Positions 6,357-9,721 of a stretch of 64,000 nt of DNA are shown here, piece by piece. The translations under genes were made by a program, and so were the position numbers. Origin of the DNA: Pseudoalteromonas haloplanktis ATCC 14393. GTDB taxonomy: Bacteria; Pseudomonadota; Gammaproteobacteria; Enterobacterales; Alteromonadaceae. The DNA is taken from assembly GCF_000238355.1 (NCBI RefSeq), contig NZ_AHCA01000002.1, positions 186,001 to 250,000 on the forward strand. Direction: 5' to 3'. The notes beneath the pieces were generated by a model, which saw nothing but the letters and a program-made list of their open reading frames with translations, made no database searches and was not told the DNA's origin. How positions within the stretch are numbered: the first letter of the stretch is position 1; the number at the start of each line of letters is the position of its first letter.

Positions 6357-7283
6357 TTACGGCATATCCATTAACGCTTGGCTTTGTTCGTCCACTTTAA
6401 CTTGATAGTTCTCATGCTTTAAACCAAGTAACTGTGGTAGCGTTGCCGCAATACAGATGGATGACAAGGTCCCTACCACAATTCCCGTAAACAAAGCGAT
6501 AGAAAACCCCTGTAATGGCGCACCAGCGAGTAACCAGACACTCGCAACTGTCGCTAATGTAGTACCTGAAGTGATCAAAGTACGCGTTAAAGTACTTTTA
6601 ATTGATTCATCAATCACAGTGTTAACGCTTGCGAGTTGTTTATTAGTATCCAAGCGTAGCAATTCACGCACTCGGTCTGCGACAATAATAGAATCATTTA
6701 ATGAGTAACCAATAATTGCCAGCAAACTTGCCAATACCGTTAAATTAAAATCAAGCTGCAACCACGAAAATAAGCCTACCACTATGATCACGTCATGCAG
6801 TAAAGCTATTACCGCCCCCAGCGCCAAACGCCATTCAAACCTAAGTGCTAAGTAAATCATTACAGCAACCATTGCTGCAAATAATGCTAAGCACCCTTGA
6901 TCGAATAATTCATCTCCCACTTGTGAACCTAAATAAGATGATGACACAACTTCAACACCCAACGACTCATCTTCAGTTAAACTTGTGATCCAGCCTGAGT
7001 TTTTTACTTGCTCAGCTTCTCTTAATTGAAAGTGTTGGCTTGATTGCGCGGTGAGAATAAAATCACCGTCATGATAAATACTCAATTTCTCAGTAAGTTC
7101 ACTTTGGTTAATTGGCACTGAGGTCGTAAACTCAGTTAAATACCCCCCGGTAAAATCAAGGCCAAAATTCAAGCCTTTTGATGTTATTCCTATTACTGAG
7201 AAAATGATTAAAAACAGAGATAAAAATAAACCAGATAAACGTAAGCGCGTTATTGTGCTCTTTTTTTCAGTTACTTTACTCAT
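6357..7283 (-). CDS. secF: Protein translocase subunit SecF (accessory SecDF copy)
   Basis: A 308-residue inner-membrane protein with an N-terminal helix, a periplasmic domain starting with the family motif G-L-D-F-T-G-G (about residue 37), and five further membrane helices. These include the S-L-N-D-S-I-I-V-A-D-R-V-R-E segment typical of SecF. With SecD it pulls preproteins out of SecYEG using the ion gradient. The start codon overlaps the secD stop by 4 bases (ATGA), so it is translationally coupled. The pair is not accompanied by tgt or yajC, the usual partners of the main secDF operon, so it is probably a second copy under the control of the upstream VemP-like gene. Confidence 0.92.
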   Translation of the reverse strand: MSKVTEKKSTITRLRLSGLFLSLFLIIFSVIGITSKGLNFGLDFTGGYLTEFTTSVPINQSELTEKLSIYHDGDFILTAQSSQHFQLREAEQVKNSGWITSLTEDESLGVEVVSSSYLGSQVGDELFDQGCLALFAAMVAVMIYLALRFEWRLALGAVIALLHDVIIVVGLFSWLQLDFNLTVLASLLAIIGYSLNDSIIVADRVRELLRLDTNKQLASVNTVIDESIKSTLTRTLITSGTTLATVASVWLLAGAPLQGFSIALFTGIVVGTLSSICIAATLPQLLGLKHENYQVKVDEQSQALMDMP

Positions 7284-9124
7284 GCATTTACTCCACGTTT
7301 GTTTGCCAATTTTAAATACACGGTTTGGCTCAATGCCTTTGAGACATACACGCCGGTAAACACACTGGTTATAAGCCCAAGCGCAAGCGTAATAGCAAAC
7401 CCTTTTACTGGCCCATAGCCTATGCCATATAAAATGACGGCAGTGATCATCGTGGTAATGTTAGCGTCAAAAATGGTGCTAAATGCTTGTTTATAGCCCT
7501 GCTCTATAGCTTGATAGGGCGCACGGCCTTTACGTCGCTCTTCTTTGATACGCTCAAATATAATGACATTAGTATCAACCGCCATGCCAATTGTTAGTAC
7601 CAGCCCTGCAATCCCAGGTAAAGTGAGCACAACACCAGGCAGCAATGACATTAAACCAACCAAAGCCGTTAAATTTAATAATAAGGCTATATTCGCCACT
7701 AACCCTAAGCGCCGATACCACAAAGCCATAAATGCCAATGTGATACCCATTCCTAGCATTAAAGCAGCTAACCCGTTATTTATGTTATCAGCGCCTAAGC
7801 TTGGGCCAATGGTTTGTTCTTGCACTATGGTTACTGGGGCGGTTAGTGAACCTGCACGCAGTAATAATGCTAAATCTTGTGCCGCTTGCGGGCTTTGCAT
7901 ATTTGTAATACTAAATTGACTACTTAAGTGCTGAGCTATATTTGCTACATTAATAACTTCACTTTTTTTAACCACTTTTCCTTGGTCATTTTTGTAATAT
8001 TCAGAATACACTGTCGCCATAGGCTTGCCGATATTACGCTTGGAAAACGCCGACATCGCTTCGCCACCTTGGCTATCAAGGCTCAGTTGTACCAGAGGCT
8101 TACCCCACTCATCGCGCCCAACATGCGCATTATTAATATGTTGGCCTGAAAAGATAGCAATTGGATCTAAGCTGATGGTGCCCCCATTTTGTAGGGCAAA
8201 GGACTTGCCGCCATATTCTTTAAGTTGATGGAAATCAAGGGATGCCGTAGCACCAATGATCCGTTTTGCAGCTGCGGGATCTTGTACACCGGGTAGTTCA
8301 ATACGAATACGCTGTTTACCTTGGCGCTGGGTTACCGCTTCCGTAATGCCTAACTCTTCAATACGACCACGCAACGTCGTCAACGTTTGACTCATCACTT
8401 CTTTAGTAAACTCACTACTGCCTTGCTCACTAAAACTAAATGCCACTGTTGTTAACTTACCTTGCGTATGCACCGTTGGAGCTAAACGCTGAAAACGTTT
8501 TAAAACTTGCGTCTGCACTGTAAGCAATTGATCTTTTGCAGCTGGCAATGCATGTAATTCAAATCCTTGCGCATTTTGTTGCACACGGACCCCTCTGGCT
8601 TTTTCATCACGAATTATCGTTTTTGTTTGCTCATAAGCGCTATCCAGCTGCTCTTGTTGCGCTTTGACTAAATCAACATCTAATACAAACAACACCCCAC
8701 CATTGAGATCCAGCCCCAACTTTATAGGTGCTAAACCTAAACTTTGTAACCAATCTGGACTTGTTTGATGCGTCACTATTTTTACATTCAACTGCATAAA
8801 TTCACTTTTTAACGCTTGCTGAGCTGCGGCGCTTTTTGTCGGCTCGTGGAGTAACACTTTTAATGACGATTGCTGTTGAGACGATTGCATAGACTGTTCG
8901 ACAGTAAAACCGTGTTGATTTAAAAAATCAACCACACTTTTTTGCGTGTCAATTGCTAATAACTCAGCGTTAACTTGTTGTTGTGCTGTCACATGCAACC
9001 AGGACTTTGCAGGGTATAAATTTGGTAAGGCGCTAATAGCCAGCAATATCAGTGCTACAAGCATAGCTAGATAGCTTATTTTAAAACGCTGAAACAGCGG
9101 TTTTTTTGATGATTTTTTTAACAT
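7280..9124 (-). CDS. secD: Protein translocase subunit SecD (accessory SecDF copy)
   Basis: A 614-residue inner-membrane protein. It has an N-terminal helix (about 15-33), a large periplasmic region with G-L-D-L-N-G-G at 137-143, and a C-terminal six-helix RND-type block. That block contains G-M-A-V-D-T-N-V-I-I-F-E-R, whose Asp is the essential ion-transfer residue of SecD. The start is preceded by AAGGA six bases upstream. This ribosome binding site can pair with bases just after the stop of the upstream vemP-like gene, predicting that secD translation depends on ribosome stalling there. Vibrio has two SecDF pairs with different ion preference, and the inducible pair sits behind vemP. The same arrangement is seen here. 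Confidence 0.93.
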   Translation of the reverse strand: MLKKSSKKPLFQRFKISYLAMLVALILLAISALPNLYPAKSWLHVTAQQQVNAELLAIDTQKSVVDFLNQHGFTVEQSMQSSQQQSSLKVLLHEPTKSAAAQQALKSEFMQLNVKIVTHQTSPDWLQSLGLAPIKLGLDLNGGVLFVLDVDLVKAQQEQLDSAYEQTKTIIRDEKARGVRVQQNAQGFELHALPAAKDQLLTVQTQVLKRFQRLAPTVHTQGKLTTVAFSFSEQGSSEFTKEVMSQTLTTLRGRIEELGITEAVTQRQGKQRIRIELPGVQDPAAAKRIIGATASLDFHQLKEYGGKSFALQNGGTISLDPIAIFSGQHINNAHVGRDEWGKPLVQLSLDSQGGEAMSAFSKRNIGKPMATVYSEYYKNDQGKVVKKSEVINVANIAQHLSSQFSITNMQSPQAAQDLALLLRAGSLTAPVTIVQEQTIGPSLGADNINNGLAALMLGMGITLAFMALWYRRLGLVANIALLLNLTALVGLMSLLPGVVLTLPGIAGLVLTIGMAVDTNVIIFERIKEERRKGRAPYQAIEQGYKQAFSTIFDANITTMITAVILYGIGYGPVKGFAITLALGLITSVFTGVYVSKALSQTVYLKLANKRGVNA

Positions 9125-9126
9125 AC

Positions 9127-9229
9127 TTCTTCCTTAAGCCTATAAAAACATAGGCTTCACGCCAAAATTGGCGTCGTTATTTTTTGCTTTAGCGAAATCA
9201 CTAAAACAGCGAAAAATTAACGAGAAGAA
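9127..9229 (-). promoter_or_regulatory. Structured secD leader that can mask the secD ribosome binding site
   Basis: On the transcribed (-) strand this spacer can fold into adjoining helices. P1: UUCUUCU (9229-9223, directly after the vemP-like stop codon) pairs with GGAAGAA (9133-9127, the secD ribosome binding site), 7 pairs with one G-U. P2: CGUUA-a-UUUUU (9222-9212) pairs with AAAAA-a-UAACG (9185-9175). P3: ACGCCAA/TTGGCGT hairpin (9174-9159). P4: AAGCCUAU/AUAGGCUU hairpin (9157-9136). The four helices abut each other almost without spare bases, which is unlikely by chance. A ribosome stalled on the last codons of the upstream gene would cover the 5' strand of P1 and expose the secD start. 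The folding was done by eye. Confidence 0.65.
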
Positions 9230-9721
9230 TTAACTGTGGTAGGTAACAACAGCTCGGTATTGTAAATTTGCGTCTTTCCAACCACTCAAACGAGACTTCT
9301 TACCTTCATAACACACAAACCAAGGTAACGTTATTGCCGGTTCAAGAGGCTGTAAATAAAGTTGCCGCGCAAGACTTGGCACAAAAAACTCAAAGATAGC
9401 CACATAATTTGGCTCTACTTGAGTATGATATAAAAATAATGACGAGTTGCTAACGGTTAAACGTGGTTGCAATGATTCAAAGCCTGCACCTTCAGAGGTT
9501 TGCTCATCCGCCGCACTCTTTTTAGTAAAAGGCGTGGTATCTGACGTTGAATTGTCAAATATCTTTACCGCTAACTGACTCAAATCTGCTTGTATCAGCG
9601 ACTGAAAAGTAGCAATAGGCTGATTCAGTTCAACTTTAGTGCTGCTCGCAGCAGTTGCCTGCACACTAAAAAGTGCAGCAAACATCAGTAACACAACGAA
9701 GACTAAGCGAAAACGAATCAT
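9230..9721 (-). CDS. VemP-like secretion monitor / translation-arrest peptide upstream of secDF
   Basis: A 163-residue secreted protein. The signal peptide (charged M-I-R-F-R, hydrophobic core 6-20, likely cut after A-T-A at 22-24) is followed by a polar low-complexity region with no enzyme motif. The last 20 residues contain S-R-L-S-G-W-K-D-A-N-L-Q-Y-R-A-V. From memory, the arrest motif published for Vibrio VemP is H-R-I-x-G-W-K-E-T-N-A-M-Y-V-A-L. R, G, W, K, N, Y and A are identical, and L, D and V are conservative changes. VemP has about 159 residues, sits directly upstream of secDF2, and stalls near its C-terminus until its own export resolves the stall. Size, signal peptide, motif position and gene order all agree. 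The homology is inferred without a database search. The ATG has only a weak Shine-Dalgarno. Confidence 0.75.
   Translation of the reverse strand: MIRFRLVFVVLLMFAALFSVQATAASSTKVELNQPIATFQSLIQADLSQLAVKIFDNSTSDTTPFTKKSAADEQTSEGAGFESLQPRLTVSNSSLFLYHTQVEPNYVAIFEFFVPSLARQLYLQPLEPAITLPWFVCYEGKKSRLSGWKDANLQYRAVVTYHS

Follow-up and report, generated by a model that had tools for sequence, protein, structure and literature searches.

The window, by which we mean the whole 64,000-nucleotide stretch of Pseudoalteromonas DNA analysed here, contains on its minus strand an ATG-started open reading frame of 163 aa (9230..9721, stop codon 9230-9232), which from its translation and its profile match to VemP we designate a VemP-like export-monitor ORF; the plus-strand translation of 9230-9721 is full of stops. 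The monitor stop codon lies 105 nt from the start of secD2 (614 aa, 7280..9124), assigned by domain scans and by its place in the SecD2 clade of a tree, which is followed by secF2 (308 aa, 6357..7283; domain scans), all three genes being on the minus strand. A sequence-only reading of this DNA had proposed a secreted protein directly upstream of secD, the gene order monitor, secD, secF as in Vibrio, and a second secDF pair without tgt and yajC. The secreted protein was supported by a putative signal peptide recognised by eye and the gene order was confirmed on the minus strand; the standing of the pair as a second copy without tgt and yajC follows from the location of the host's primary secDF on a different contig, C49, where queA, tgt and yajC precede secD and secF in that order. 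Pfam and NCBIfam scans of the monitor returned no Pfam family and one NCBIfam match far under the cut-off, and promoter-like sites 5' of the monitor were at chance level (3 found versus 2.4 expected in the region).

The features of the monitor and its leader all lie on the minus strand. The protein begins with a putative signal peptide (residues 1-24, MIRFRLVFVVLLMFAALFSVQATA; 9650..9721), in which an n-region RFR, a hydrophobic core and ATA, the predicted cleavage point, were read by eye. Conservation marked out a mid-chain element at residues 95-112 (LFLYHTQVEPNYVAIFEF; 9386..9439), where a hydrophobic stretch is followed by EPxYxxxxEF, and, upstream of the core, Trp134 (9320..9322), which is near-invariant in both the 28-row and the order-wide alignments and is a possible analogue of VemP Trp124, a residue that stacks on uL22 Arg95 (PMC5449182). 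Near the C-terminus, which reads RLSGWKDANLQYRAVVTYHS (also given as KKSRLSGWKDANLQYRAVVTYHS), lie the putative arrest core, R144-LSG-W148-K149-DA-N152-LQ-Y155 (9257..9292), and a PTC-proximal tail, RAVVTYHS (9233..9256), within which alignment to VemP Q156 predicts Tyr161 as the P-site codon (9239-9241). Immediately 3' of the stop codon, the computed fold places an anti-Shine-Dalgarno segment, UUCUUCUC (9222..9229), which a leader with three internal hairpins (9136..9221) joins to the Shine-Dalgarno (SD) core of secD2, GGAAGAAG (9126..9133), predicted from unpaired probabilities to be sequestered by the anti-SD.

The motif that had first drawn attention, R-L-S-G-W-K-D-A-N-L-Q-Y-R-A-V near the C-terminus, corresponds to residues 144-158 and begins 20 residues from the end, as had been described. 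Translating the window in all six frames yields the pattern R...WK..N..Y a single time, against an expectation of 0.012; for the C-terminal 30 residues of a single ORF, the expectation is about 3e-6. Searches with the single monitor protein matched 63 of 108 Pseudoalteromonas genomes and a profile matched 66 of 107; six named relatives were all Pseudoalteromonas (arctica, rhizosphaerae, ostreae 75%, prydzensis twice, 67%, and neustonica 52%). Alignment of 28 orthologues, in which residues ~25-80 vary and differ in length, revealed invariant positions in mid-chain (F96, L97, Q101, P104, Y106, E111, and F112) and at the C-terminal end (R144, S146, G147, W148, K149, N152, L153, Y155, and T160), with Y161 present in at least 90% of the rows. 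In 36 diverse order-wide rows, P104, R144, W148, K149, N152, and Y155 were invariant (36/36) and Y106 was present in at least 90%, so that the C-terminal motif is conserved among orthologues in the genus as well as in the order.

Similarity to VemP emerged in profile searches. Against 177,635 PDB sequences, the 28-orthologue profile placed the VemP nascent chain (5nwy_s) at the top and in register, with an E-value of 0.14 that is not significant alone (next match 0.41), and for the 36-row order-wide profile the same chain was the only match, again in register (E 0.0047). Single-sequence PDB searches with the window monitor and with one relative missed VemP, and another gave it weakly (E 1.3); the profiles found it. 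Profile-profile comparison (hhalign) with 20 canonical VemPs gave probabilities of 93.6% over 24 columns and 97.5% over 29 columns, with the core aligned to VemP R139/W143/K144/N147/Y150. These 20 canonical sequences were taken from genus g38, which we infer to be Vibrio because its row L103 (159 aa) has P67, R85, R139, W143, K144, N147, Y150, L153, and N154 at the published V. alginolyticus numbers and a C-terminus that matches the PDB chain. The VemP motif quoted in the sequence-only reading agrees with HRIXGWKETNAMYVXLNXX (PMC7897499) and with PDB 5nwy chain s, and its proposal of a VemP-type monitor in a lineage outside Vibrio held for this Pseudoalteromonas host; the motif as cited there stops short of Asn154, a PTC-proximal residue of VemP that is missing from the window monitor.

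Identity with VemP was upheld only in part: the arrest core, its spacing and the putative signal peptide (by eye) agree, but the tail and Arg-85 differ. The window monitor retains the partners of VemP R139, G142, W143, K144, N147, and Y150 as R144, G147, W148, K149, N152, and Y155, and the likeness in length (163 against about 159) and in the distance of the motif from the C-terminus was supported, the signal-to-stall spacer being 137 in the window against a published median of 133 (PMC10987492). In the VemP structure, R139 touches A752, W143 touches uL22 R92, K144 touches U747, and N154 together with Y150 touches the PTC region, while the stall has Q156 in the P site and F157 in the A site (PMC5449182). 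The host uL22 hairpin has both R92 and R95, the VemP contacts (numbering from 110-residue PDB chains). In contrast, VemP L153, N154, and Q156, positions at which changes harm arrest, are V, V, and Y in the window monitor, and the canonical tail V151-A152-L153-N154-x-Q156, near-invariant in the 20 rows, shares only its Ala with R156-A157-V158-V159-T160-Y161 (YVALNSQF versus YRAVVTYH). The Arg-85 that follows a short hydrophobic segment is invariant in the 20 canonical rows, but the window monitor has no Arg at that place, residue 102 being V; a hydrophobic LFLY is present at 95-98 and is preceded by an invariant Arg87, 74 residues from the stall compared with 71 for VemP Arg-85. No alignable counterpart was found for the VemP (hydrophilic)xP motif Q65-S-P67, a region that was dissimilar in hhalign. 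Since L153/N154/Q156 are replaced, the similarity is confined to the C-terminal 24-29 columns and Arg-85 has no counterpart, the window monitor is, judged on sequence, VemP-like and not canonical VemP.

Tails ending in TYH are usual in Pseudoalteromonas and are met again in families f7 and f11; in L046 and L047, TYH forms the very end of the protein. Other tails read YSHFRELLS, YSHRQYP, and YIPQQY. Because the VemP anchor partners are kept, L153/N154/Q156 are lost and tails vary among lineages, the tunnel anchor appears to be fixed and the PTC-proximal part exchangeable. One invariant tunnel core combined with several natural PTC-proximal tails amounts to a ready-made mutational series, in which residues holding the chain in the tunnel can be told apart from those through which the peptidyl transferase centre is silenced. 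Two further monitors, L141 (G102, RISGWQESN) and L142 (G103, RISGWHESN), keep R and W with the core Lys replaced by Q or H, a natural test of the K-U747 contact.

The monitor is closely tied to the second SecD. In Pseudoalteromonas, 60 of the 66 monitor matches are followed on their own strand by a SecD2-type gene, at a distance of 79-278 nt measured between the ends of the two matches; the six others are in G073 (contig break), G079, G012, G020, G085, and G088, and that of G079 adjoins a SecD gene outside the matches listed. Defining SecD2-type as the 70 genes with at least 665 bits among the matches listed (down to 641 bits), we found a monitor ORF upstream of 69/70, 60 with a profile match and nine with a class II ORF recognised on inspection, G073 being cut by the contig end. 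At L133 (G039), the class II monitor (stop near 1159) stands ~700 nt from secD compared with ~120 nt in its relatives, perhaps through an insertion between the arrest ORF and its target. When 31 SecD proteins from 15 genomes were placed in a tree, the 15 primary copies separated from 16 further copies, both clades at 100/100; the window SecD fell among the latter, the SecD2 clade, and three sampled SecD2 behind canonical VemP (G567, G572, G577) formed one clade (100/100). One genome, G116 (L175, L183), carries two SecD2-type genes from different SecD2 subclades besides SecD1.

Across the order, 77 of 394 genomes and 19 of 114 genera matched at E <= 0.01, some of these genomes (e.g. G140 and G428, with mid-chain positions only) probably by chance. 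Inspection by eye of the 29 loci L042-L070 showed 28 in which a core-bearing ORF precedes a SecD-like start; the exception, L058, belongs to G012, which has the peptidase-linked homologue described below. Genus g38 had matches in 88 of 118 genomes, and its 24 loci among the matches listed (L092-L115) comprised 20 of canonical NALYVALNSQF type and four of a wider type (L092-L095). Four g38 genomes (G529, G543, G593, G594) gave two or three monitor matches each, and therefore some species may run several monitor-secDF units.

The leader between the monitor and secD2, which had gone unmentioned in the earlier reading, adds an RNA element to the locus. For the 132-nt leader of the window, the computed folding energy is -41.0 kcal/mol (z -6.4 versus 300 dinucleotide shuffles), and in this fold the SD core GGAAGAAG pairs with UUCUUCUC around the three hairpins. 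The unpaired probability of the SD core was 0.17 in the free leader, a value not unusual alone since it did not fall below shuffles (mean 0.29, P 0.26), and it increased to 0.62 and 0.87 when the RNA was cut 3 and 6 nt beyond the stop, a rise reached by 0/300 shuffles. At 9- and 12-nt cuts it was 0.30 (P 0.13 and 0.16), with U-rich bases taking over. With Tyr161 at the P site, the front edge of the ribosome is estimated from the usual footprint to lie about 3-6 nt past the stop. By computation, then, the leader sequesters the SD and is opened by a ribosome stalled with its front 3 or 6 nt past the stop, and not at 9 or 12 nt.

Among 50 distinct Pseudoalteromonas leaders, the median SD unpairedness was 0.16 versus 0.45 in shuffles, and a cut 9 nt past the stop gave a median rise of 0.47 versus 0.00; at this cut 41/50 leaders exceeded 95% of their own 40 shuffles, but the window leader did not. 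Considered as an isolated duplex, the anti-SD/SD pair beat letter shuffles in 32/50 leaders (p < 0.05), and it was not beyond shuffles for the window (p 0.21) or for the class II loci L130, L135, and L143. Order-wide, most stop-codon/SD duplexes outside Pseudoalteromonas were not beyond shuffles either, nor was that of the window with longer segments (p 0.605), and the automatic choice of secD starts gave doubtful starts in many of the loci outside Pseudoalteromonas. Because of these doubtful starts and the weak duplexes elsewhere, we make the RNA claim for Pseudoalteromonas and from whole-leader folding.

Within Pseudoalteromonas, one clade (12/12 sampled rows together, 100/100) carries class II monitors, which share the scaffold but have a rewritten core such as NHGFIDACKPANLVYKARLTYHA. 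In these, R and W are lost and ANL plus an aromatic is kept, before SecD2 (L127-L140, L143-L146; L151:5014-5496). The anti-SD/SD pairing persists in re-lettered form in most class II loci, the leaders pairing through unrelated letters (TCATTATCT with AGATAATGA in L127 and its kin, and L144 with others), and the leaders' own stop/SD pairs were stronger than cross-class pairs (means of -8.0 and -9.2 versus -5.6 and -3.9 kcal/mol; 34 and 16 leaders). The R-WK-N-Y core is the one that accompanies outgroup SecD2 (f7, f1g2, f16, f11), which makes class II most likely the derived form.

A third class of homologue stands directly before an S41 peptidase gene in G012, G020, G085, G088, G076, G011, G002, and G009 (L147:5441-5851, L148:5506-5910, L149:5304-5714, L150:5187-5597; also L207, L208, L209, and L211), the Pfam S41 assignment having been checked on two of the peptidases. 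There were 12 peptidase matches in 107 genomes, and the homologue precedes all eight genes scoring at least 289 bits (8/8). The class I and class III profiles matched at a probability of 97.1 over 75 columns, and the class III profile matched 25 class I proteins at 5e-12 to 3e-6; the class III proteins end in a W-R/H-D/N-x-N-I/V-L core. All eight genomes fall outside the 70 that have a SecD2-type gene among the matches listed, and G088, G076, and G011 have only two SecD/SecF matches in all, again among the matches listed. In class III, the segment at the stop codon is complementary to the bases immediately 5' of the peptidase SD, the SD itself being left outside the helix, and this complementarity beat shuffles at p < 0.05 in six of the eight loci, the exceptions being L204 and L211. 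Class III is a possible arrest peptide with a new target. Canonical VemP gave no convincing match to the class II or class III profiles (probability 0.6 and 2.5), so that both classes are tied to VemP only through class I.

Based on these data, we put at about 0.87 the probability that the window gene encodes an export-monitoring arrest peptide which controls secD2-secF2 by a VemP-like mechanism. During normal export, the ribosome on the monitor would finish and leave, the leader would fold with the secD2 SD paired 3' of the monitor stop, and SecDF2 would be kept low, the pairing being computed and the repression deduced from it. When export is slow, the R144-x3-W148-K149-x2-N152-x2-Y155 core would hold in the exit tunnel and the ribosome would stall when within a few codons of the stop, the alignment pointing to Tyr161 as the probable P-site residue. 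Its front, 3-6 nt past the stop, would then cover the anti-SD and, as computed for the RNA, free the SD, so that in the cell SecDF2 would be made, and renewed pulling on the chain would, by extension from VemP, end the stall.

Other explanations of the locus were weighed against this one. The anti-SD lies right at the stop codon, where any ribosome would open the stem briefly, and the gene could be a plain translational-coupling leader in which ribosomes reaching the monitor stop open the stem without a nascent-chain stall, the conserved C-terminus having some other role. Such a leader leaves unexplained, however, both the invariant R, W, K, N, and Y beside a freely varying middle and the in-register match to VemP, and we consider it quite improbable. 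Less credible still is that the monitor is an unremarkable secreted protein, or else serves SecDF2 as client or cofactor, and that its C-terminus resembles VemP by chance: the signal peptide and the lack of a known domain would suit this view, but the chance expectation of about 3e-6 at that place, the retention of the match beside SecD2 in other families of the order and the RNA switch all speak against it. The nature of the signal leaves more room for doubt. VemP is tied to PpiD and SecDF through Arg-85 together with its short hydrophobic segment. This arrangement has not been kept in the window monitor, which instead has the invariant Arg87 before the segment at a similar distance from the stall (74 versus 71), and the protein might arrest in response to a cue that is neither SecDF1 nor salinity, such as membrane potential or the general activity of Sec/SecA. 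We regard this as somewhat unlikely, given that its target, a second SecDF, is an orthologue of the Vibrio one and that monitors usually sense the task of their own target.

Under the arrest-peptide reading, the monitor would be a member of a broad R-WK-N-Y family tied to SecD2 in this order of Gammaproteobacteria, of which the canonical VemP of Vibrio, marked by a YVALNSQ tail and Arg-85, would be one branch. To a wider proposal we give even odds, namely that VemP is a branch within an old modular sensor family in which the core is held and the tail swapped by lineage, in which class II has had its anchor rewritten (R and W lost; e.g. GFIDACKPANLxY) with the gene order unchanged and the RNA switch complementary but re-lettered, and in which class III, in eight genomes, has taken an S41 peptidase as its new target. 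If true, class II and the peptidase-linked homologue would show arrest peptides changing their mechanism and target with a working RNA switch kept.

In the open-licence literature, we found no account of VemP in Pseudoalteromonas and, among the matches listed, no secDF arrest peptide or secretion monitor of this genus; in texts where "vemp" and Pseudoalteromonas occur together, the word is a personal name, once that of an author. Published work describes the vemP operon as a feature conserved specifically in Vibrio (PMC11470409). A 2024 survey gives 339 VemP-like sequences with an RxxxWKxxNxxY-like consensus (PMC10987492), and because this consensus is looser than canonical VemP, the 339 may already include such homologues, and R-WK-N-Y monitors beyond canonical Vibrio VemP may already be implicit there. 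What is new here is the stop-codon/SD switch, the invariant core with a replaced PTC-proximal part, the class II core and the S41-linked homologue.

Among known systems, VemP of Vibrio alginolyticus resembles the window monitor in its length of ~160 aa, its signal peptide (by eye in the window), the core R-I/L-S-G-W-K-E/D-x-N-x-x-Y and its distance from the C-terminus, the secD2-secF2 genes downstream and a stem hiding the secD2 SD, likewise computed for the window leader. The window monitor agrees with the VemP-like uORF cluster in motif, localisation signal (by eye) and position, but the consensus of that cluster (PMC10987492) covers neither the class II core nor the S41-linked homologues. 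The uDF_RQH_Enterobacterales peptides (e.g. of Alteromonas naphthalenivorans, a related marine genus) are likewise arrest peptides before secDF2 with a stem that masks the SD, but have an RGPP-type arrest motif in place of the R-WK-N-Y of the window (PMC10987492). SecM of E. coli similarly couples an export-sensitive stall to the opening of a leader stem over a downstream SD, and differs in its motif, FxxxxWIxxxxGIRAGP, and in its target, secA.
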